From Pseudomonadota bacterium (GTDB lineage: Bacteria; Bdellovibrionota; UBA1018; CAIMNF01): DNA of 64,000 nucleotides. How positions within the stretch are numbered: the first letter of the stretch is position 1; each line of letters begins with the position of its first letter. A program made the position numbers and the translations under genes. Location of the stretch: NCBI GenBank assembly GCA_027486675.1, contig JAIXOQ010000008.1:1-64000 (forward strand), in the 5' to 3' direction. Below, in pieces: positions 40,055 to 59,386 of the stretch. The notes below the pieces were generated by a model that saw nothing but the letters and a program-made list of their open reading frames with translations, was not told where the DNA came from and did no database searches.

Positions 40055-41167
40055 ATGATCGTTCACGCACCGGCACTCTATAGGAAGTCTGACTACATTG
40101 AGGTGTCGGCTCGGGTTGAACTTCAGACGAAGAGAAAGAAGAGTCTTCCAGAAACACTGTGGTTTCGGTTTCCGGCTGAATCAAATCCAAGCACAGACGC
40201 CGACCCATTTGTCGTGGCCCTACTGTTACTTGGGATGCAGCTTAAGGAAAATATCGAGGTTCGGGGTCCAGTTTCAAGAAAACTAGCCTTAGGGTTGGCT
40301 GAGTACCAGAAGCGGTTTCATGAATGGTACTCAGATCGCTTTCATATCATCGTTATTCTTGCAGACTCCTTCAGAGTAGATCAGGACATATCGCCTGCGC
40401 CTGGTGTGGGTGTCGCTTTTTCTGGAGGGGTCGATTCTTTCTATTCCTTCTTAGAGCTTCGGCCACAAATCACTCATACGCTCTTTATGGCAGGTTTTGA
40501 TATGCCACTCAATCTTGTGGATTCAGCTCGCGCTCTCAGCACAAGCTTTCAGGAAATGATGGAACAAGAGGCGGTTCAGTTCATTCACGGAAGTACCAAT
40601 GTTCGTGCATTTGTAAATACTGTGGACTGGACTAACGCTCATGGGACCGCACTTGCGGCCAGTGCACTCTTTTTTAAAAAGTCGTTCGGGCAGTTTGTTA
40701 TTCCTTCTAGCTATACGGAGTCGACCTATCCAAAGTGGGGAACCCATCCGGATTTGGATCCTCTCCTGTCCACCGGCGAGCTGAGTTTTTATCATCATGG
40801 CGCGCAGGCAGATCGAGTAACAAAGCTGCAGACAATAACGAAATATCCAGGAAGTTTTACACGCTTGAGAGTCTGTTGGATTCAAGATCTTGGGCTAAAG
40901 AACTGTGGAAATTGTGAGAAGTGTGTTCGAACGATGATTGCGCTTTCGCTGGTGGGGGCACTTTCTTCCTGCGTCACCTTTCTGCCGGGCGCCCTGACCA
41001 GGAAAAAGATTCGTGCTCTGCCTATGAGGACCCACCAAGCCAGGCTTTTTGCACTGGAATTGATGGGGCATGCGATGAAACGGCATAGATACGGGGTATT
41101 TTTTGACCTCATGTGTGCCTTGATTCAGCGTGAATGGTTCTTTAGGGTGGGCCACCTTTTCGGATAA
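40055..41167 (+). CDS. QueC-like PP-loop ATPase with Cys4 zinc site
   Basis: A 370-residue protein of the adenine-nucleotide alpha-hydrolase fold. The PP-loop is FSGGVDS (Ser123-Ser128), the ATP pyrophosphatase motif of QueC/TilS/asparagine synthetase-like enzymes. A zinc site is suggested by Cys274-x9-Cys284-x2-Cys287-x2-Cys290 (CWIQDLG then NCGNCEKCVRT), the same layout as QueC. The N-terminal 120 residues and the C-terminal 75 residues are extra and unlike housekeeping QueC. No other queuosine gene is nearby. It probably activates a carboxylate or amide with ATP, but the substrate is unknown. Its 3' end lies just ahead of a beta-barrel gene. Confidence 0.75.
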   Translation: MIVHAPALYRKSDYIEVSARVELQTKRKKSLPETLWFRFPAESNPSTDADPFVVALLLLGMQLKENIEVRGPVSRKLALGLAEYQKRFHEWYSDRFHIIVILADSFRVDQDISPAPGVGVAFSGGVDSFYSFLELRPQITHTLFMAGFDMPLNLVDSARALSTSFQEMMEQEAVQFIHGSTNVRAFVNTVDWTNAHGTALAASALFFKKSFGQFVIPSSYTESTYPKWGTHPDLDPLLSTGELSFYHHGAQADRVTKLQTITKYPGSFTRLRVCWIQDLGLKNCGNCEKCVRTMIALSLVGALSSCVTFLPGALTRKKIRALPMRTHQARLFALELMGHAMKRHRYGVFFDLMCALIQREWFFRVGHLFG

Positions 41168-41180
41168 GCTCTGGGAAGGC

Positions 41181-41804
41181 ATGTCGAACCGGAAGTGCAT
41201 CTTTCTGCTCATTATCCTCTTGATCTTCTTTTTGAAGAAGGACGCTTCGGCTGCGCCATTTCAATACATACTTGCTGTGAGTGGGGTGGCCCAGAGGCTC
41301 AATTATTCTGCGGTACCTGCTGGGCAAACGATCGGAACTGAAGGCCGTATGGGTTATGGAGTGGGGTTGTTGCGGGGCGTTCCGCTCGGTCAAACACTCA
41401 GAGCCGAATTCGGTTTGTTTTACCAAGAACGAACATCTAGGGTCTTGACTACATTTCCTTCGGGCACGAGCACTGATATTCGGTGGAAATTTACGTCCAT
41501 AGATATTCCCGTTCAGATCCGCACTTATTTTTATGGGGAGTTATTCAGTATTGGTGGTGGGTTAATGCTTTCCCAAGGAATTGGAAGTGTGGGCTCCAGT
41601 AGCGGTAGCGTCACTTATGATTCTATTGGTCTAAAGAAGACCAATTTCCAAGCAGTGGGTGGTTTTTCCTTCCAACCCAAGTTCGGAAACGTGCTGGTTA
41701 TGCTGGGTCTGCTCGGTACTTATGGACTCAGTGATCTGAATTCTCTGGGCACAGGATCAATCAAGACGACTGGATTTCAATTCCTACTTGGATTTGGAAT
41801 CTAG
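41181..41804 (+). CDS. Outer-membrane beta-barrel-like protein
   Basis: From ATG 41181 the 207-residue protein has signal peptide MSNRKCIFLLIILLIFFLKKDASAAPF. Strands of a small OmpW/OmpX-like barrel follow (MGYGVGLLRGVPLGQTLRAEFGLFYQERTS, FTSIDIPVQIRTYFYGELFSIGGGLMLSQ), ending in TTGFQFLLGFGI. Longer starts at 41130 would overlap the QueC-like gene and disrupt the signal peptide. It starts 14 bases after that gene and overlaps the convergent FHA gene by 21 bases. Specific role unknown. Confidence 0.68.
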   Translation: MSNRKCIFLLIILLIFFLKKDASAAPFQYILAVSGVAQRLNYSAVPAGQTIGTEGRMGYGVGLLRGVPLGQTLRAEFGLFYQERTSRVLTTFPSGTSTDIRWKFTSIDIPVQIRTYFYGELFSIGGGLMLSQGIGSVGSSSGSVTYDSIGLKKTNFQAVGGFSFQPKFGNVLVMLGLLGTYGLSDLNSLGTGSIKTTGFQFLLGFGI

Positions 41805-44498
41805 CACGTGTTTCTGAAAGAAATGCTCTTGAAAAACCCTAAATTTCCTATAGCGTTCGGGGCTTCCTAATAGTCTCTTCAAATCTGCGACAGCACTCGC
41901 TTCTGCCTCCCTCATCCGATCAATCCCTTCTTTTTCAAACTGCGGGTTGATGTAGGAACGAAGCTTGATGAGTTCTTTGAGAAGATTAGTCTCGACAGGT
42001 GCAAAGTTTACGATAACTTTTTCACTCATTTCAAATTCTCTTTGAAACCAGCGATTCATCTCAAGCACCCACTTATTTTGATACTCCTGATCCTCAGCCA
42101 TCTCTGCAAAGCCCTTTAAGAATAGGACGTTTTCTGTATAGCTGTCCCGAAAGCTTGTGTCTTGATAAGGCTGATATTTACTCTTCGCAATACGATCGCT
42201 TTGCATCTGTTTGATATAGGCATCTGACTGCTCAGATCGCTCTTTCATTTGCTCGACAGCACCGGCTGTGACACGATTCACGTTTTCCCGGAAGACAGTA
42301 AATAGAAGTGTGACTAAAAGCACAAGACTTGCGCCGATGCCAACACGAATCCAATACTTCTGAGCGCGTAGCCTAGAACTTGGGTCGACTAAGCCAAGCC
42401 TCTTCAGTTCCTCTGCCGATTCAGGCGAAGAGCTTGGAGTCAGTATACCTTCGACAATTGTTTCTAAGTCGCTCCAAGCCTCAAGTATTCTTGCGGTTTC
42501 GGTGGCACTCATTCCACCTTTCTTCAGCAAGGATGCAGCTGACTTCAGTAGGGACCGTGAGATGACTCGTACCTCTGATTTTCGCTTCGACTGCAACTCA
42601 CGAAGCTCCGACTCGCCCTGTGAGCGTGCCTCGGTTAGAGCTTGTGCTTTGGCTTGAGTGATTTCCAACTCTGCTTTTTTACGCAGTTCTTGTTTTTCTC
42701 TCTCAAGTTGCGACCGCATTGAAGCTAATTCCGATGCATGCTTTTCTAGGCTTTGCTTGATTTCCGCTTCATTGGAAGCAAGCTTTTGTCGAACTGACTC
42801 TGCCGCTTCGGTCACGATGCGTTTTGCCTCACTTGTAGCATGCGATTCAATCGCTGAGGCTTTAGACTGGGCAGCTTCTAATATGGAATCTGCAGATGAC
42901 TCCGAGGCCTTTAGAATCTGTTCCGCTTTGATGCTTGCTTGTTTTTCTAGGTTTAAAACCCTCAAGTCCGCTTGTCCTAATTTTTCCTCCGCCTCAGATT
43001 GAATCCTAAGACGGGCTTCTTCTTCCTCCATCTTCAGCTGCTGCTGGGCGCGGGCACGCTCTTCAAGGATGGTCTGACGTGTGGAATCGAGTTCAGCTTC
43101 AATTCGATCTTTTAAGGTATGGGCATTGAGAGTTGCAGCCTCTAAAGAGGATTTCTCTTGAGTGAGGTCGTCTAGCCGTTTGGACAACCGTTCGATGTCA
43201 GACCGTAGGGCAAGAGATTCCTTTTCATGGGCGTCCTTTGTGAGACGAGCGGTCTCTTCAGCAGACACCGCTTCGTCGCAACGTTTTCTAGCACTGAGTG
43301 CAGCCTCTTCATTTCGTACGCGATCGTTTTCGGCACGGCTTAAGCGGGTGATTGCCTCTTCGATCTCCCGATTGATCTGAGCTAATCTCATCCCCCGTTC
43401 AGCAGCCTCGGTTTCCTCGACTGCGCGTAGCTTTCTTTCCCGCAGTTCATGTTCGCGTCTATGCTCTTCTTCGGTTTGTTTTGCTTTCTCGAGCGCCTTG
43501 TAGATAGAACGTGTCTCTTGGGCGGCAGCTTTCTCATCTTCTTGATGCTTAAGGAGTGTAGTGCTGAGACGTGAACGCTCTTCCTCGAAGTTTTCAGTCA
43601 ATGTTTTGAGCGATTCTTGAAGGGCTAAAGTCTCGCGTTCCGCCTTTTTACGGGCTTCGATCAAGGTCTGATCTAGATTCTTGAAAAATTCCGAGGCTTC
43701 GAGCTCCCTGGATTCCTTCTTCTGAACGAAAGCTTGCTCTAACTCGCTCAATTGCAATTCAAACTTAAGTTTAGCCTCTTCTAAAATGGACTCGGCCTTC
43801 TGTGCCCGAGAGTCGATCTTCTCTTGGAGTGCCACTTTTCGTTCCTGATAGTCGCGCTCTAAACCTTCTAGTTCTTCGGCCTTTGCAACAGTCTCGGTGA
43901 TCGCTTTATCCCTCTCGGCTCGCGCTTGATTTAGATCCATCAGGGCTGCCTGCCAAAGGGTTTGCACCTCGGCAATCGCCGCCTTTCTTGCTTGAAGGTC
44001 CGCTTCTAAAAGCTCGATCTGATCGTTGAGTTTCTGTTCCCTGATAAAGTGAGCTTTTGGGATCCCAGCCAGCACTGCTGAACCATGCGTGCTGGGTTGC
44101 GCAGCCATGGAGGGTTCAGCCCGCTCTTTGGGCGGACTCAGTTGAGAAGGTACTAGGCTTAAGCTCGGTTCTCTTGGCACTGCTTTGGCGGAAATGCGGA
44201 CAGTAGCGCCTTGGGATCCAAGGACGATCGGAATAGATGGGTCATGCGGTATCAGCGCTTTTGGCTCAAGGCGCTGGCCTTTGATAAATGTTCCGTTCGA
44301 GGAGCCATTGTCCATCAGCCAGATTCCATCCTCCTTAAGAAGGATGATCAAGTGTTCGCGACTTATAGTTTCGTCCGGGATCGTAAAATCTGCCTCAGTA
44401 GAGCGGCCAATTCGTATACGATCCAGAGAGGAAAAGTCGTTTGAGCGACCTCCTTCAAGTTCGATTCGAACTATTGGCTTGCGTACTCCGCCCTGCAT
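41784..44498 (-). CDS. FHA-domain protein with giant coiled coil and membrane anchor
   Basis: A 904-residue protein. The N-terminal FHA domain (about 1-110) has RIRIGRSTEADFTIPDETISREHLIIL and DNGSSNGTFIKGQRL, with the Arg, Ser, His and Asn residues that bind phosphothreonine. A short linker leads to an almost unbroken coiled coil of about 530 residues (about 155-690) rich in Glu, Lys, Ala and Arg. One membrane helix follows (VGIGASLVLLVTLLFTVF, about 715-736), then 168 residues predicted to be periplasmic. The FHA and coiled coil should be cytoplasmic. It is the third gene after the MotB-like and MotA-like genes, with 18 bases from the latter. No known family of this full architecture comes to mind. 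Confidence 0.85.
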   Translation of the reverse strand: MQGGVRKPIVRIELEGGRSNDFSSLDRIRIGRSTEADFTIPDETISREHLIILLKEDGIWLMDNGSSNGTFIKGQRLEPKALIPHDPSIPIVLGSQGATVRISAKAVPREPSLSLVPSQLSPPKERAEPSMAAQPSTHGSAVLAGIPKAHFIREQKLNDQIELLEADLQARKAAIAEVQTLWQAALMDLNQARAERDKAITETVAKAEELEGLERDYQERKVALQEKIDSRAQKAESILEEAKLKFELQLSELEQAFVQKKESRELEASEFFKNLDQTLIEARKKAERETLALQESLKTLTENFEEERSRLSTTLLKHQEDEKAAAQETRSIYKALEKAKQTEEEHRREHELRERKLRAVEETEAAERGMRLAQINREIEEAITRLSRAENDRVRNEEAALSARKRCDEAVSAEETARLTKDAHEKESLALRSDIERLSKRLDDLTQEKSSLEAATLNAHTLKDRIEAELDSTRQTILEERARAQQQLKMEEEEARLRIQSEAEEKLGQADLRVLNLEKQASIKAEQILKASESSADSILEAAQSKASAIESHATSEAKRIVTEAAESVRQKLASNEAEIKQSLEKHASELASMRSQLEREKQELRKKAELEITQAKAQALTEARSQGESELRELQSKRKSEVRVISRSLLKSAASLLKKGGMSATETARILEAWSDLETIVEGILTPSSSPESAEELKRLGLVDPSSRLRAQKYWIRVGIGASLVLLVTLLFTVFRENVNRVTAGAVEQMKERSEQSDAYIKQMQSDRIAKSKYQPYQDTSFRDSYTENVLFLKGFAEMAEDQEYQNKWVLEMNRWFQREFEMSEKVIVNFAPVETNLLKELIKLRSYINPQFEKEGIDRMREAEASAVADLKRLLGSPERYRKFRVFQEHFFQKHVLDSKSK

Positions 44499-44516
44499 TG
44501 CTCCTACTTCATCGGC

Positions 44517-45521
44517 CTAAGCCGCATCTTCTTTTTTGGGTTTAGTTTCAACGGTACCTTTCGGGCGGCTTCCGTCGTCCTCAAGTTTTTCTTGCTTGGC
44601 GAGTTCCTGTTGCACCGCGTACTCAGCAAGGGCTGCTATTGGATCACGATTTTCATCAAACTTCGGCAAGTTCTCAGGCAGTTGATTGTTATCGCAGGCC
44701 TGCCAGAGGAGTTCTAACGCAAGTTCGAATCGATTTACAACCGAAGCAAATACCCGTTCAGGGGACATAAATGCATTGAGCGTGGTCAGCATGACTGAGA
44801 GGAAGATCCCAGTGACAGATGCGCCCATTGAGAACGAAATCCGGAGCAAGAATGTATCCATGACTAGCTTCGTGCCCTCAGCATCACTTAAGTTCATTCC
44901 GCCCAGTTCAGGAAGGGCTTTCATGATTCCTAAAAATGTTCCAAAAATACCACCGATGATCAGCAGCCCAGGAAGAATATTGATCATCTCATTGACTGGT
45001 GCTGCAGGGACCACGGCGAATATTCGATTAAAGCAGGGGTTATTCTGAAAGACTGCTTTTGAGATCGCTAGAAACTTAGGCCGCTCTTCGCCGTAACGAA
45101 GAAAACGAATCTGCTTCAAAGAGTGTTTCACCAGGAATGCAGCGCCGGCCTGTATCATAAAAAAGCGGTCACTCGGTGCCATCACGTAGTCGAGCTTTCT
45201 ACGACGCATGATGCCTCTCACTTCAAAGAGTTCGTAGTAGGTTCGCTCTAAGAGTTCTTTCATGAGGACATAGAAACTAAGACCTGACTTAGGTCGTTCG
45301 CTTTCAATGAAAGTATTGATCCGTTTATCGAGTTCTTTTGCAAACCACTCACTCCGTTTTACGGTATAGAAGATCAGAACTCTAAGGGCCGCACCTAAAA
45401 TGAATAGGAAGACCAGAGAGGGGAGGAGGAGCTCTTTTGCAAAGAGGGCTGCGCCAGTGATAAATCCTTCGATCAATGGCTTGTTGGCTACTACCTGTTC
45501 TACAACTGCTTGTTCGTTCAT
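44517..45521 (-). CDS. MotA/TolQ/ExbB-family ion channel subunit
   Basis: A 334-residue membrane protein with three helices: TM1 LPSLVFLFILGAALRVLIFYTV (about 33-54), TM2 INILPGLLIIGGIFGTFLGIMKAL (about 185-208) and TM3 ISFSMGASVTGIFLSVMLTTLNAF (about 235-258). The PGLLIIGGIFGTFLGI segment is the proton-channel signature of this superfamily. A 130-residue cytoplasmic loop and a charged, Lys/Glu-rich tail (from about 290) flank it. It is wedged between the MotB-like gene (4-base gap) and the FHA gene (18-base gap), so the three should form one operon. TolQ of this genome is separate at 58676, so this is not the Tol system. Confidence 0.85.
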   Translation of the reverse strand: MNEQAVVEQVVANKPLIEGFITGAALFAKELLLPSLVFLFILGAALRVLIFYTVKRSEWFAKELDKRINTFIESERPKSGLSFYVLMKELLERTYYELFEVRGIMRRRKLDYVMAPSDRFFMIQAGAAFLVKHSLKQIRFLRYGEERPKFLAISKAVFQNNPCFNRIFAVVPAAPVNEMINILPGLLIIGGIFGTFLGIMKALPELGGMNLSDAEGTKLVMDTFLLRISFSMGASVTGIFLSVMLTTLNAFMSPERVFASVVNRFELALELLWQACDNNQLPENLPKFDENRDPIAALAEYAVQQELAKQEKLEDDGSRPKGTVETKPKKEDAA

Positions 45522-45525
45522 TTCG

Positions 45526-47037
45526 TTAGTCCTTCAAGTTAAACTTAATAATTACGCGTTGTGCTTTACGGCAATTGTACTTCTGACAAAACTCATTCTC
45601 TGGAATACCACTCTGAATCTCTGAGGCGGCTTTACCGTCTGGAAGATACCCTCGCCCAACTACCTTTACCATGGGGAGAAGTTCTTTCTGGTGTTCGTAC
45701 TGCAGTCGGTTTGGATCGAAGATATGTTTAAAAATTGAGTTAGCTCGGCTAAAGCTGAGCTTTAGGTTATAGTCGATCGCTTCACGATCCTCAGGATTTA
45801 AGCTCGTAGGATTCACAAACTTCCCTTTGTAGGTAGAGGAAGCAAAACCAACGATTTCTACGTTGGCTAACTTTGCAGCTGTCTTTGGGTCGCTAAAAAG
45901 TGCCTTGGTGTATTCTGGAATCATCTTTTCAAGACGGCTTCTCATAGATGGTTTTAGGTTGGATGATCCAGTCTCAAAGTAGTCGTCACCAAAGGAAAGA
46001 GTGACTTCTCCGGTCTTTTCATCGACGGCTGCCTGAATACCTGCTCGTTTAAAGTTGTTCATGATTTGTTGGGATAGTTTTTGCTTAGCTTCGAGTGTTT
46101 CCCGAGCCTTCTTGAGGTCACCCGAAAGACCCTGAATGCTGGATACGTATTTGCTTTCGCGTTCTTTTGCTGCAGCAAGTTGTTGCTCCTTCCCAGCGAT
46201 TTCGGCTTCCTTCTGACGCTTGAGGGCCTCTGCTTGTCTCTGTGTCGCGGTCAAGTTCGACGCAGTCTTTTCAAGCTCCTGGTTCGTAGACTGTAAATTC
46301 TCCTGCACGCTAGAGAGTTCCTTCGCAACTTGTCTGTTTCGGCGTTCGAGTTCCTGAAGTTCCTGCGCACTCTTTTCTTTTAATTGAGCAATACGTTTTT
46401 CTAAAAGTTTCTTCGATGATCTGGCTCGCTTTTGTTCGTTCGTAGCCTTAGTGATCTGCGCTCGGAGCTCATTATCAATCTGATTCATTCGTGCTTTGTT
46501 TTCATCCAGTTCATCTGCGAGGTTAGCGATCTGTGTGTCGCGATCCTTGAGTTGTCCCTGCTTCTTCACAATTAAAGTGTCGCGTTGCTTGAGTTGACGT
46601 TTAGCGAGCACGTTTGCATTAATGATGTTTCGTATCATCTGTTGATATTGGTTTAACGCTGCTGCTTTTTGATCATTGTCTTTAGCCTGCTTCATCAGGT
46701 CATCACGCTCTTGTTTGGCGTCACTTTGAAGAAGGTTGAGTTTTTCCATTAGATTTTCGTACTGTTCCTGCTCTTTTTCTGAAGCATTTGCCATCTGTTC
46801 TTCGCGTAAAGTGTTGTAGACCCGGATCTGCTGTTCAAGATCTTGGGAATGTTGGGTCATCTTTTGGAATTCGATCTGTTTTTGGATGCCTTGAGTTCCA
46901 CTTCTTACGCTGGCCACGACATAAAGAAGAAGGAATATCACCGAAAGCACGGTAAAAAGATCGCTATAAGCGGTCCAGAAGGTGCCACCTTCATCGTTAC
47001 GGTGCTGGATTTTGTCGTAATCAAAGCCCACGGTCAT
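45526..47037 (-). CDS. MotB/OmpA-like stator protein with very long coiled coil
   Basis: A 503-residue protein. After 18 cytoplasmic residues, a single helix FWTAYSDLFTVLSVIFLLLYVVASV carries Asp26, in the place of the ion-binding Asp of MotB/ZorB/TolR. About 270 residues of coiled coil follow (about 55-330, rich in Gln, Lys, Glu). An OmpA/MotB peptidoglycan-binding-type domain ends the chain (about 345-503: VEIVGFASSTYKGK, LSFSRANSIFKHIF, VKVVGRGYLPDG, CRKAQRVIIKF). The coiled coil would be longer than needed to cross a normal periplasm if straight. First gene of the operon; a two-state hairpin covers its ribosome site. Confidence 0.85.
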   Translation of the reverse strand: MTVGFDYDKIQHRNDEGGTFWTAYSDLFTVLSVIFLLLYVVASVRSGTQGIQKQIEFQKMTQHSQDLEQQIRVYNTLREEQMANASEKEQEQYENLMEKLNLLQSDAKQERDDLMKQAKDNDQKAAALNQYQQMIRNIINANVLAKRQLKQRDTLIVKKQGQLKDRDTQIANLADELDENKARMNQIDNELRAQITKATNEQKRARSSKKLLEKRIAQLKEKSAQELQELERRNRQVAKELSSVQENLQSTNQELEKTASNLTATQRQAEALKRQKEAEIAGKEQQLAAAKERESKYVSSIQGLSGDLKKARETLEAKQKLSQQIMNNFKRAGIQAAVDEKTGEVTLSFGDDYFETGSSNLKPSMRSRLEKMIPEYTKALFSDPKTAAKLANVEIVGFASSTYKGKFVNPTSLNPEDREAIDYNLKLSFSRANSIFKHIFDPNRLQYEHQKELLPMVKVVGRGYLPDGKAASEIQSGIPENEFCQKYNCRKAQRVIIKFNLKD

Positions 47038-56235: not shown

Positions 56236-57549
56236 CTAGTTTAGGGCCGGGGACCACTTTGGAGCAACACAGTTACCTAAACCAAAAGTCAGGCGCTTGA
56301 CCACGTTTCCTTCCATATTGATGACATAAACGCTGCGTGTTCCTTCTCGACTGGACGAAAACACGACAAAGCGGCCATCTGGGCTAAAGTGAGGGTCTTC
56401 GTTTGACCCTTCATTTTTGGTCAAGCGCTCAATGGTGGTTCCATCTGAGTTCATCGTGAATAGGTCAAATCGATTGTCGATCCAGCCTGCAAAGGCAATT
56501 TTCTTTCCATCAGGGCTAAAGCTTGGCGAAGCATTGTATTGACCGGCATAGGTCAATCGTTTGGCAGATTGAGGTTCAGTGGCGGGCATGATGTAGATCA
56601 TCGGTTTACCGGCCCTGGAAGAGACGAAGGCTATTTTCGTCCCATCTGGGCTAAATGCGGGGTCAACATCCACGCCGATGGACTGGGTGAGGCGAGTCGC
56701 TTCCCTGGAATCTGGATCCAGGAGAAAGATTTCTGGGTTGCCCAAGTGGGACAATGTGAGTGCAATTCGATTTTTCTTGGGGTCATAATTGGCTCCAGAG
56801 TTAATCCCCGTCTTATTGCTGAGAAGTCGGAGAAGCTTCTTCGTGAAGTCGAACTCAAAAAGATCGAGATTCTTGGTGTTGTCCTCGTGACGATTATAAA
56901 CGGAATAAGCGATGCGTGTGCCATCTCGATTCCAGGCAGGACTGACAGTGGTTGATCGGTGCTGAGTGACTTGCTGTGGATTGGAACCATCGAAGTCAAA
57001 GACATACACTTCTTTTTTTCCTGAACGATCGCACACTGCAGCGATCTGAGATTTGAATACCGATGGTGTGCCTGTGATTGCTTGCACGATATCATTGGCT
57101 GCGGTGCGGATGGTGATCTTCCAGTCATTGGGAGCGCTAACGTATCGTTTTGAGAGAAGACTCTTTCCGGAAGGTGTCTGGTAAAGATGGATTTCAGCGA
57201 TGGTCTTATCCGCGCTAGAAGTGAGCGTCCAACCCACCACAAAATCGGCCCCAATTTTAGACCAGTCCTCTCCTTTCGGATTGATCCCGCCCTCCAGTTC
57301 CGCTTGGGGATAAGCGTTCTCAGAGACAATGCGAAAGAGTTCAGCGAAATTGAGGGTATTTGAAAGTTCCCTTTTCAATCTGCCGGCAAGTTCACCCGAA
57401 GGAGACTTTGGGTTTGGGATCGCAATCGAAGGCTTTTTGGTCTTTGCACTTCCCACTTCGAGGTAAACCCCATCGGCATTTGCGGTGGCAACTGGGAGGG
57501 TTGGTACAAGAACAAGGGCAAAAAGGAGCGCAAAGAAAAGCTTCATCAT
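56236..57549 (-). CDS. tolB: Tol-Pal system protein TolB
   Basis: A 437-residue periplasmic protein with signal peptide MMKLFFALLFALVLVPTLPVATANAD. The N-terminal TolB domain (about 30-165) is followed by a beta-propeller of WD40-like PD repeats: SPAWNRDGTRIAYS, DPAFSPDGTKIAFVSSRAG, SPSFSPDGKKIAFAGW and DPHFSPDGRFVVFSS. It links Pal and colicin-like ligands in E. coli. Last tol gene here, 11 bases after tolA. Pal does not follow. Confidence 0.95.
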   Translation of the reverse strand: MMKLFFALLFALVLVPTLPVATANADGVYLEVGSAKTKKPSIAIPNPKSPSGELAGRLKRELSNTLNFAELFRIVSENAYPQAELEGGINPKGEDWSKIGADFVVGWTLTSSADKTIAEIHLYQTPSGKSLLSKRYVSAPNDWKITIRTAANDIVQAITGTPSVFKSQIAAVCDRSGKKEVYVFDFDGSNPQQVTQHRSTTVSPAWNRDGTRIAYSVYNRHEDNTKNLDLFEFDFTKKLLRLLSNKTGINSGANYDPKKNRIALTLSHLGNPEIFLLDPDSREATRLTQSIGVDVDPAFSPDGTKIAFVSSRAGKPMIYIMPATEPQSAKRLTYAGQYNASPSFSPDGKKIAFAGWIDNRFDLFTMNSDGTTIERLTKNEGSNEDPHFSPDGRFVVFSSSREGTRSVYVINMEGNVVKRLTFGLGNCVAPKWSPALN

Positions 57550-57560
57550 TATGAAGCTGA

Positions 57561-58259
57561 TTATAACGGGAAGCCCAAAAGAACGCCATCGGATGCAAGG
57601 GAATCGATCACATCCTGAGGGGGTAGAGCAAAGGGCGCTGATCTTTGCACGGCTCGTCGCACTTCTTCGTCGTAAACGTCATTGCCCGAAGGCCTCTTAA
57701 AAACGATGCGCAGAATATTTCCTTTGGAATTCAAAAAAAGCACGACCTGCGCAGAGAGTCCTTTGGTCTGAAGCCAGCTGGGTAGTTCCCAGTTTTCCCT
57801 GAGTTTCTGCAAGACTCCATCGTAATACGTTGCCTGTTCGCGCTCTTTCGCCTCTCCAGAAGTAGTTGCCCCTTTTGAAATCATGTTGCCCTTAAGAGCT
57901 TGAAGCTTTTCTAAAGCTCTCAGGCGCTCCAGTGCGCTTTTCATGCTTTTTGCGGTGGTCTTTTGCTTTTTGCTGAGAGAAACCTCAGCGCTTTCCATCT
58001 TTATTTTCGGCGCTGTCTTGACCTGCTTCTCTGGAGCGGGCGGAGTCGGAGCATTTTCTGGAGCTGGGAGCGATATCGGTTCATCTTTCTTTTGGTCAGG
58101 CAGCGCAACGAGGTCCACGCGAAGAGTAGGTACGATGCGCTCCCTAGGTCGCTCGGTGACCAAGGATCCTAATATTGCTAGACCCATCACAAGAGTGTGA
58201 GCCAAAACCGAGCGTTTGAAAGCGCGAGAAAACGAAGGTGCGCGAGCGGCATGCTCCAT
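57561..58259 (-). CDS. tolA: TolA-like protein with TonB C-terminal domain
   Basis: A 232-residue protein. An N-terminal membrane anchor (HTLVMGLAILGSLVTE, about 18-33) precedes a Pro/Lys-rich then helical linker (LPAPENAPTPPAPEKQ, AKSMKSALERLRALEKLQAL). A TonB/TolA-type C-terminal domain ends it (VLQKLRENWELPSW, VVLFLNSKGNILRIVFKRPSGNDVYDEEVRRAV). The linker is much shorter than in E. coli TolA (421 residues in all). Position between tolR and tolB fixes the assignment. Confidence 0.88.
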   Translation of the reverse strand: MEHAARAPSFSRAFKRSVLAHTLVMGLAILGSLVTERPRERIVPTLRVDLVALPDQKKDEPISLPAPENAPTPPAPEKQVKTAPKIKMESAEVSLSKKQKTTAKSMKSALERLRALEKLQALKGNMISKGATTSGEAKEREQATYYDGVLQKLRENWELPSWLQTKGLSAQVVLFLNSKGNILRIVFKRPSGNDVYDEEVRRAVQRSAPFALPPQDVIDSLASDGVLLGFPL

Positions 58260-58271
58260 AAAATTTTAATT

Positions 58272-58679
58272 TCACTCCTCAGAAGGCGATGTAGCCAGGC
58301 CAACTCTTGAGATCCCGGCCGCCTTCACAAGTCCCATCGCCCGTGCGACCACGCCGTACTCTACAGCTGCATCAGCCTGTACAACCACTTGTGTATTCTT
58401 TCCTTGGCTCGTAGATTTCAGTCGTTCTTTGAGTTGCGCCCAGCCAATCGACTTTCCATCCCAACTCAGTTCTCCTGATTTTTTTATACCGAGCATGATA
58501 GAGGTTTCTTCTGTAGTCATCGCTTGGGTTGCTACTTTTGGAAGTGCAACTTCGATCCCTTGCTGCATAAGGGGTGCAGAGACCATGAAGACGATCAGAA
58601 GGACTAGCATCACGTCCACAAGCGGGGTGACATTGATCTCTGCTAAGCGGCTTTTCGAGCCGCTTGTATTCATTTTCAC
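58272..58679 (-). CDS. tolR: TolR (ExbD/TolR family)
   Basis: A 135-residue protein with one membrane helix. INVTPLVDVMLVLLIVFMVSAPLM (about 14-37) carries the ion-binding Asp of TolR/ExbD. The C-terminal periplasmic domain includes VVVQADAAVEYGVVARAMGLVKAAGISRVGLAT, the family signature. Start overlaps the tolQ stop as ATGA, so the stator subunits are coupled. Confidence 0.95.
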   Translation of the reverse strand: MKMNTSGSKSRLAEINVTPLVDVMLVLLIVFMVSAPLMQQGIEVALPKVATQAMTTEETSIMLGIKKSGELSWDGKSIGWAQLKERLKSTSQGKNTQVVVQADAAVEYGVVARAMGLVKAAGISRVGLATSPSEE

Positions 58680-59386
58680 TGATGGGCCTCGGGAGACTGT
58701 TTGTTACGTTGCAATAAGCTTCTTTGGACGAGATTGAGAAAGTCCTGAGCAAAGCTGTCCATATCGACCGAGACCTTTTGAATGCGTTGAAGGAAGTGAT
58801 TGTAGCCAATTGCAGCAGGAATCGCTGCAGCAAGTCCCGCAGCCGTTGCAATCAGAGCCTCACTGATCCCTGGTGCGACGACGGCTAAGCTGGCGCTGCC
58901 GGTGGCTCCGATGTTTTGAAATGAGGTCATGATTCCCCATACGGTTCCAAAAAGCCCAATAAATGGGGCAGAGCTTGCGATTGTAGCAAGCCAGTCGACG
59001 TGACTTTCTAGGGCTGCCATTTGATTCGACATCGCTTTATTGAGCGATCTTGAGATGTTATTGACCTCAATATCGCCACTCTGTGTACCTTCGCCGGAGG
59101 AAAGCTTCCGTAATTCTTTGTAGCCGGTCAAAAAGGCTTGAGCGATGGGGGAGTGATGCAGAGGTTCAACACGTTGAAAAATTTCATCTAAGGACTTTCC
59201 TGCCCAAAATACATCCAGAAATTCTCTATTTCCTTTTTGTGCCGATCTCAGTCGGGTCCACTTTTGAATGACGACAGCCCAGGTGACCACGGATGCAAAA
59301 ACAAGTAGGATGAGGATGGCCTTAACGATCGGTCCCGCTTGAAGGACTAGTGCGATTGTGCTTAAACCTGCGTTTCCAGAATTCAT
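58676..59386 (-). CDS. tolQ: TolQ (MotA/TolQ/ExbB family)
   Basis: A 236-residue stator subunit with three helices: IVKAILILLVFASVVTWAVVI (about 19-39), TIASSAPFIGLFGTVWGIMTSF (about 138-159) and ISEALIATAAGLAAAIPAAIGY (about 173-194). APFIGLFGTVWGIM is the TolQ/ExbB hallmark. It energises outer-membrane constriction with TolR and TolA. Its start lies 65 bases inside the end of the upstream membrane-protein gene, an unusually long same-strand overlap. Confidence 0.95.
   Translation of the reverse strand: MNSGNAGLSTIALVLQAGPIVKAILILLVFASVVTWAVVIQKWTRLRSAQKGNREFLDVFWAGKSLDEIFQRVEPLHHSPIAQAFLTGYKELRKLSSGEGTQSGDIEVNNISRSLNKAMSNQMAALESHVDWLATIASSAPFIGLFGTVWGIMTSFQNIGATGSASLAVVAPGISEALIATAAGLAAAIPAAIGYNHFLQRIQKVSVDMDSFAQDFLNLVQRSLLQRNKQSPEAHQ

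Follow-up and report, generated by a model that had tools for sequence, protein, structure and literature searches.

Known ion-driven stators of the 5:2 type are regulated by plugs, by contact with a rotor, or by accessory proteins. In the Agl-Glt gliding machinery of Myxococcus the B subunits, AglQ and AglS, are ExbD-like. Contact between AglR of this machinery and GltG, a membrane protein with an FHA domain, was reported from a two-hybrid assay (PMC3169522). In the solved ZorAB complexes, the aspartate of ZorB packs against the Ser/Thr ring of ZorA; this aspartate is crucial for defence, and D24 and D21 of ZorB, the equivalents of Asp26 described below, are critical (PMC11890865). Here, we analyze a three-gene locus found in 64,000 nucleotides of a genome labeled Pseudomonadota bacterium and classified among Bdellovibrionota (GCA_027486675.1, contig JAIXOQ010000008.1, positions 1 to 64,000; hereafter the window, and its genome G000). 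The locus codes for a MotB-like protein, a channel protein of the MotA/ExbB/ZorA type, and a protein in which an FHA domain tips a very long coiled coil (the FHA protein). With a probability that we put at about 0.6, it represents a new family of 5:2-type ion-driven stators with a dedicated signal-input subunit. No description of this family was found in the open-access literature searched.

The three genes lie on the minus strand and all start with ATG, 4 bases separating the MotB-like gene from the channel gene and 18 bases the latter from the FHA gene; order, strand, gaps, and domains are as the original prediction had described them. Letters resembling ribosome-binding sites directly precede the ATG of the MotB-like gene (aggagga-type) and that of the FHA gene (taggagca). 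Residue numbers refer throughout, for the whole family, to the window proteins, which have the following features.

45526..47037, minus strand: MotB-like B subunit, 503 residues (ZorB1 profile, 3.7e-28, an unspecific profile; MotB_plug, 5.6e-4)
46960..46962, minus strand: codon of Asp26, the predicted ion-binding aspartate
46048..46890, minus strand: coiled-coil arm of the MotB-like protein, residues ~50–330, predicted periplasmic, with heptad-type periodicity
45529..46035, minus strand: OmpA-like C-terminal domain, residues 335–503, aligned to the periplasmic domain of a solved ZorB (8vvi)
44517..45521, minus strand: channel, MotA/ExbB/ZorA-type A subunit, 334 residues
44937..44939, minus strand: codon of Thr195 (ZorA T147), predicted polar ring of the ion path
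44817..44819, minus strand: codon of Ser235 (ZorA S184)
44622..44660, minus strand: channel tail motif FDENRDPIAALAE, residues 288–300, candidate docking site for the FHA protein
44520..44525, minus strand: C-terminal Ala-Ala of the channel, candidate degron or recognition tail
41784..44498, minus strand: FHA protein (FHA, coiled coil, transmembrane helix, helical bundle), 904 residues
44235..44423, minus strand: FHA domain, residues 26–88, binding residues intact
42429..44036, minus strand: cytoplasmic coiled-coil arm of the FHA protein, residues 155–690
42294..42350, minus strand: single transmembrane helix of the FHA protein, residues 717–735
41787..42281, minus strand: predicted periplasmic all-helical domain of the FHA protein, residues 740–904

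The predicted stator core and its nearest relatives

The channel has three hydrophobic segments by hydropathy (residues 32–50, ~176–200, and ~225–252) and a short cytoplasmic tail of ~60 residues. The Pfam profile MotA_ExbB matches the window protein alone with E = 0.23, and 14 of 17 family members with E ≤ 0.1 (best 8e-5). When a profile of the family was compared with solved structures, it matched ZorA (8qyh, E = 1.3e-5) and no chain of MotA, ExbB, or TolQ. Of the top seven Foldseek matches of the predicted channel monomer, six are ZorA chains and the other is an ExbB; ZorA is closest, with ExbB and TolQ next. Very long branches set the family apart from the TolQ/ExbB/MotA-type proteins of the window genome in a maximum-likelihood tree, so that only the internal structure of the family is reliable. 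Profile, fold, and tree thus place the channel outside both flagellar MotA and ExbB/TolQ. Judging by profile and predicted fold, ZorA is the nearest solved relative, but a remote one.

The residues expected of the superfamily are nevertheless in place. Thr195 and Ser235, in the last two membrane helices, are invariant (64/64 channels) and align with T147 and S184 of ZorA, which are conserved in 3/3 ZorA sequences; they would form the polar Thr/Ser ring typical of MotA, TolQ, ExbB, and ZorA. The MotB-like protein has a single hydrophobic helix (residues 26–44) that includes Asp26, an aspartate in 87/87 members of the family, and the MotB_plug profile matches residues 12–46 at a score below the Pfam cut-off. 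Because these residues are kept, and given the published ZorAB structures, an ion-driven stator core is well supported by inference. In one G+C-rich relative outside the 87-member set (L049, 8450–9301, genome G015), the MotB-like protein lacks both the long coiled coil and the conserved aspartate (PVSALFAV) and stands beside a divergent channel; it is possibly a non-conducting derivative. An 819-residue frame at L049 that suggests a channel–MotB fusion is an out-of-frame reading of the overlapping MotB-like gene in G+C-rich DNA.

Between its membrane helix and its OmpA-like end, the MotB-like protein carries an arm of ~280 residues (50–330) whose periodicity (z 6.7 at 3.5) is well above that of shuffled sequences. 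The arm is present in nearly all members, which range from 480 to 1083 residues, and an OmpA-family Pfam match was found in 4 of 13 relatives. If straight, at 0.15 nm per residue, this arm would measure ~42 nm and that of the FHA protein ~80 nm. Because 42 nm exceeds a normal periplasm, the MotB-like arm would have to double back, run at a slant, or bridge the distance towards the outer membrane.

A plug-like helix with an aspartate and an OmpA-like C-terminus are features shared with MotAB, and one might take the pair for an accessory flagellar stator, a MotAB paralogue that is brought in under particular conditions while the FHA protein adjusts swimming. Bdellovibrio bacteriovorus HD100, which has the locus (see following), does swim, and in a two-gene relative (L043) a flagellin gene lies two genes downstream. 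Yet the channel, with its three membrane helices, matches no MotA, and flagellar genes are not recurrent neighbours of the three-gene loci. The window genome also has a separate 299-residue MotA_ExbB protein with a MotA-like N-terminus (L007), which lies across the tree from the family, so that a flagellar role is hardly probable. With TolQR and ExbBD, the locus shares the three-helix topology and the fold class, but the family profile does not reach TolQ or ExbB, the B subunit is not ExbD-like, and the window has its own tolQ-tolR-tolA-like-tolB set (56236–59386), as had been noted before.

ZorA and ZorB are the nearest solved relatives of the two subunits, with the Thr/Ser ring and the aspartate aligned and with an OmpA-like B subunit in both systems. 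Moreover, the FHA arm is close in length to the cytoplasmic coiled-coil tail of ZorA. This raises the question of a divergent Zorya-type antiphage system, in which the stator would sense perturbation of the envelope and the FHA protein would signal to an effector encoded elsewhere. Here, however, the coiled coil belongs to a separate protein, the channel's own tail being short, and the B subunit is extended by a long coiled-coil insert. None of 241 genomes has a ZorA above the curated cut-off of NF033915 (17.6 bits for the window protein, against 100). As originally claimed, no ZorC or ZorD gene is adjacent, nor is ZorE: there was no such Pfam match in the flanking genes tested and no recurrent neighbour. 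The original claim that no Glt gene is adjacent also stands. On these features (ZorA cut-off, tail, and ZorC/D/E), membership in Zorya is rejected. The PADLOC profile of ZorB1 (PDLC00609) hits 239 of the 241 Bdellovibrionota genomes, as well as control genomes such as those of E. coli and B. subtilis; its matches were discounted as evidence for Zorya because they include ordinary MotB/OmpA proteins. A genuine type I Zorya (L202, 3472–7947, with ZorA at 3.7e-226, ZorB, and an EH_Signature protein) coexists with the present stators in genome G097. Finally, the channel is broadly distributed and mostly single-copy, unlike the patchy presence of defence islands, and the FHA gene of HD100 is regulated with the attack phase. 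A divergent Zorya is therefore very improbable. A search of PHROGs gave no matches.

Conservation of the three genes across Bdellovibrionota

Named genomes were scanned for the channel with conserved peptide patterns, the only scan outside the phylum, and the best 80 of 135 matches were kept. Nearly all of these are labeled as Bdellovibrionota-type organisms (Bdellovibrio, Bacteriovorax, Halobacteriovorax, Pseudobacteriovorax, Oligoflexia); the records of Thioalkalivibrio and Streptomyces among them are contigs of metagenome-assembled genomes, probably misbinned. The gene immediately upstream of the channel, on the same strand, codes for a MotB-like protein in 79/79 loci, and the one immediately downstream codes for the FHA protein in 75/78. 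The adjacency, which the original prediction allowed might prove rare, is thus nearly constant.

Among 325 Bdellovibrionota genomes, partly overlapping with the named ones, 165 have a channel match at any strength and 133 a strong one; overall, the channel is mostly single-copy and present in ~40–50% of the phylum. The C-terminal domain of the FHA protein (FHA_C) was found in 123 genomes, 118 of which also have the channel (odds ratio ~294). The corresponding Fisher test (p = 3e-64) ignores the relatedness of the genomes and hence overstates the case, but the pattern still spans many families. Hence, the FHA protein tracks the channel in its phyletic distribution. Of 130 FHA_C matches, 107 have the channel upstream at <7 kb and in the same orientation; roughly half of the others fall on separate contigs. 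The trio is not found everywhere: no channel match was reported for the complete genome G185, although 19 further high-quality genomes of its genus have one. Nevertheless, conserved gene order and strand rule out chance neighbours, and the trio is a conserved module of Bdellovibrionota.

No conserved fourth gene was found, as no other neighbour recurs beside the trio. The window genome has one copy of the channel and MotB-like pair. At the FHA end of the window locus, a convergent gene (41130–41804) for a beta-barrel-like secreted protein of 224 residues overlaps the FHA gene by 21 bases; it does not recur beside the loci of relatives.

Another possibility is that the stator pair is real and the FHA gene is a co-transcribed passenger with a cytoskeletal role, in line with the “crescentin-like” annotation given to its presumed HD100 orthologue in 2010 (PMC2797640). 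Paralogues with the same C-terminal domain and no stator nearby do exist (L198, 6382–8457; L203, 4484–7564; L204, 4326–8363; L205, L206, L207, L209, and L210). Those of genus g132 (L205, L206, L209, and L210) have a conserved neighbourhood with glycosyltransferase-like and patatin-like genes. We regard a passenger as quite improbable: adjacency and co-occurrence are maintained across the whole phylum, a motif in the channel tail is limited to FHA-linked channels, and the predicted membrane helix and periplasmic domain are ill-suited to a cytoplasmic filament.

The FHA protein and the exchange of the third gene

The FHA domain (Pfam, E = 9e-15) has its phosphothreonine-binding residues intact in the window, and most members of the family keep them (Arg32 in 64/77, Ser46 in 68/77, Asn68 in 60/77). 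The arm that follows, of ~535 residues, contains no proline and has a periodicity (z 7.4 at 3.67) well above that of shuffled sequences. It leads to a single transmembrane helix (hydropathy 2.21; AlphaFold helices) and to a compact helical domain of ~165 residues, predicted to be periplasmic, kept in all members, and modeled by AlphaFold with high confidence (predicted local distance difference test 95–98 over most of it). The helical domain has no significant fold match in the PDB and no match in Pfam. In the original prediction, the FHA protein was the ZorA tail made into a separate protein. The agreement in length stands; the arm is, however, N-terminal to its membrane helix, whereas the tail of ZorA is C-terminal, and hence the resemblance is an analogy and not the outcome of gene splitting.

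Channels that the phylum search matched more weakly group in a clade of their own (support 99/98), within which the third gene is a different one. In this sister lineage (L050, L051, L155, L157, and L179–L197), the gene directly downstream of the channel codes, in 22 of 23 loci and on the same strand, for a protein of ~150–165 residues with a single cyclic-nucleotide-binding domain (cNBD); at the remaining locus (L187) the cNBD gene is convergent. Three of these proteins match the Pfam profile cNMP_binding with E-values of 5e-18, 1.9e-21, and 1e-15, and the phosphate-binding cassette (FGE plus Arg) is kept in nearly all of them. The MotB-like proteins of the sister lineage are longer (559–1083 residues where complete), with very long coiled coils. 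FHA-linked and cNBD-linked channels are separate in the tree, and the two lineages may share a genome; G097, for example, has L197 and, on contig 39, a three-gene locus. The two stator genes stand alone in a third lineage (L043–L048), whose channel has a short tail and which has neither partner gene adjacent. In L043 and L044 a small conserved gene (~97 residues) directly follows the channel.

Because the sister clade swaps the FHA gene for a cNBD gene, the third gene can be read as an exchangeable signal-input subunit. The channel and the MotB-like protein look like a constant core, to which the third gene would supply a signal-binding domain. Gating is better supported in this general form than as the phosphothreonine gating originally proposed: the phosphothreonine-binding residues are kept in most members but not in all. 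The window genome has one strong Ser/Thr kinase (G000:C28:84463-85263), which is a candidate partner kinase only.

The tail of the channel also differs between lineages. A motif of the type FDEHRDPxEALAE is present in 81 of 82 FHA-lineage channels, the only miss (L067) being a close variant. It is absent from all 23 cNBD-lineage channels and all 9 two-gene channels, and occurs in 4 of 772 unrelated neighbour proteins. The pattern was widened twice with the FHA-lineage tails in view, so the informative result is its absence from the other lineages. The FHA protein may dock on this motif. Channels of all lineages also tend to end in a small dipeptide (AA, AS, VA, or GA; 100/115), as do the cNBD proteins (15/19), compared with 35/639 background proteins, 0/115 MotB-like proteins, and 0/70 FHA proteins. 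Such an end resembles that of ssrA and may be a degron, that is, a signal for a protease or adaptor.

The FHA protein could alternatively be the output of the motor and not its gate: by pushing on the transmembrane helix or the periplasmic domain of the FHA protein, the stator would move some structure of the envelope or surface, as proposed for GltG. AglRQS-GltG is the closest parallel for this, as it also combines a stator with a single-helix FHA protein that AglR contacts (PMC3169522). GltG is in addition the nearest NCBIfam match of the FHA protein (1.5e-8), and the helical domain that would be pushed is the one kept in all members. The match is nonetheless limited to the FHA region (residues 20–166; 33.6 bits against a cut-off of 650), and the C-terminus, TonB-like in GltG, is here all-helical and has no TonB (PF03544) match. 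Further, all that the sister lineage has in its place is a soluble cNBD protein lacking an output part, and the two-gene lineage has neither partner gene adjacent. Hence, we consider a force-transmitting FHA protein unlikely, though worth keeping in mind. Because the TonB-like end, the ExbD-like B subunits, and recurrent glt neighbours are all absent here, the locus does not belong to Agl-Glt by the features tested; the B subunit is MotB/OmpA-like and the channel belongs to another lineage. AglR-GltG is the best mechanistic precedent, suggesting by analogy that the present proteins work alike.

A proposed mechanism and its setting in Bdellovibrio

Under the signal-input model, two MotB-like proteins would have their N-terminal helices enclosed by five three-helix channel proteins. 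Invariant residues and homology suggest that ions would pass between Asp26 and the Thr195/Ser235 ring and so make the ring of channels turn, in the manner of MotAB and ZorAB. The MotB-like protein would be anchored in the envelope by its OmpA-like domain, held off by the ~280-residue coiled coil. The FHA protein, with one helix in the inner membrane, its small helical domain in the periplasm, and the FHA tip at the end of its cytoplasmic arm, may dock on the tail motif of the channel. A phosphothreonine signal received by the FHA domain would then switch or position the motor, and the small cNBD protein would take the input role in the sister lineage. The mechanical output would most likely be a force on the envelope or the surface.

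The trio of B. bacteriovorus HD100 lies at 1,107,724–1,112,616 on the plus strand, upstream of ftsY, as assigned by gene order. About 11 kb downstream is an L,D-transpeptidase gene that fits Bd1176, which we take to be the L,D-transpeptidase gene of this strain. The smc gene is Bd1158 (PMC11318664); 21 reading frames were counted between the two for 18 tags, which places the FHA gene within Bd1165–Bd1168, and it codes for the only coiled-coil protein in the range that could be Bd1167. By gene counting, Bd1167 is therefore the HD100 orthologue of the FHA protein. It was published as an attack-phase transcript with the label “coiled-coil crescentin-like” (Lambert et al. 2010, PMC2797640); no link to a motor was found in the literature searched. 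Two other complexes, Bd2209–2212 and Bd2723–2726 (PMC12034629), are by their tags elsewhere in the chromosome. Because its FHA gene is an attack-phase transcript, the motor is probably for the free-swimming or prey-contact stage; such a transcript fits poorly with a constitutive housekeeping or an antiphage role. Rotary stators set by exchangeable subunits (FHA for phosphothreonine, a Crp-like one for cyclic nucleotide in the sister lineage) might thus be used by predators at the stage of prey contact, a tentative proposal that we rate at somewhat less than even odds.

Several observations weigh against the interpretation as a signal-controlled stator. The FHA and the cNBD lineages each seemingly arose once; with the FHA lineage probably a single clade (support only 69/45), the correlation with the tail motif amounts to a single contrast between clades and not to repeated events. 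Phospho-binding is not universal, as the FHA-binding residues are missing in ~12–22% of members, and the FHA protein can have another role, since about ten FHA_C proteins, including those listed above, sit apart from the channel. MotB/OmpA proteins usually carry a GHTD-type motif where the OmpA-like domain of the window has GFAS, without the usual acidic residue. The E-values of the Foldseek matches are weak (best 1.7e-3), with probabilities near 1, and the structures were predicted as single chains, the 5:2 assembly and its interfaces being deduced. Finally, the tag Bd1167 rests on counting. The core of the original prediction, namely that the locus encodes an ion-driven stator of an undescribed kind to which an FHA arm belongs, has survived the three outcomes named as telling against it (rare adjacency, a channel firmly within flagellar MotA or ExbB clades, and an FHA protein of unrelated phyletic pattern), none of which was found; overall, we consider the original interpretation partly supported.

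If the interpretation is correct, control of this stator by ligands would be of a plug-in kind. An operon that swaps its ligand-binding subunit between two signalling chemistries would be a natural system in which to study the control of ion-driven rotation by second messengers and by phosphorylation. A transposon-sequencing dataset and an ordered knockout library exist for B. bacteriovorus (PMC6561027), and the motor is thus testable at once, the trio being present in a genetically tractable predator. The finding would also reinterpret a gene filed since 2010 as coding for a “crescentin-like” cytoskeletal protein.

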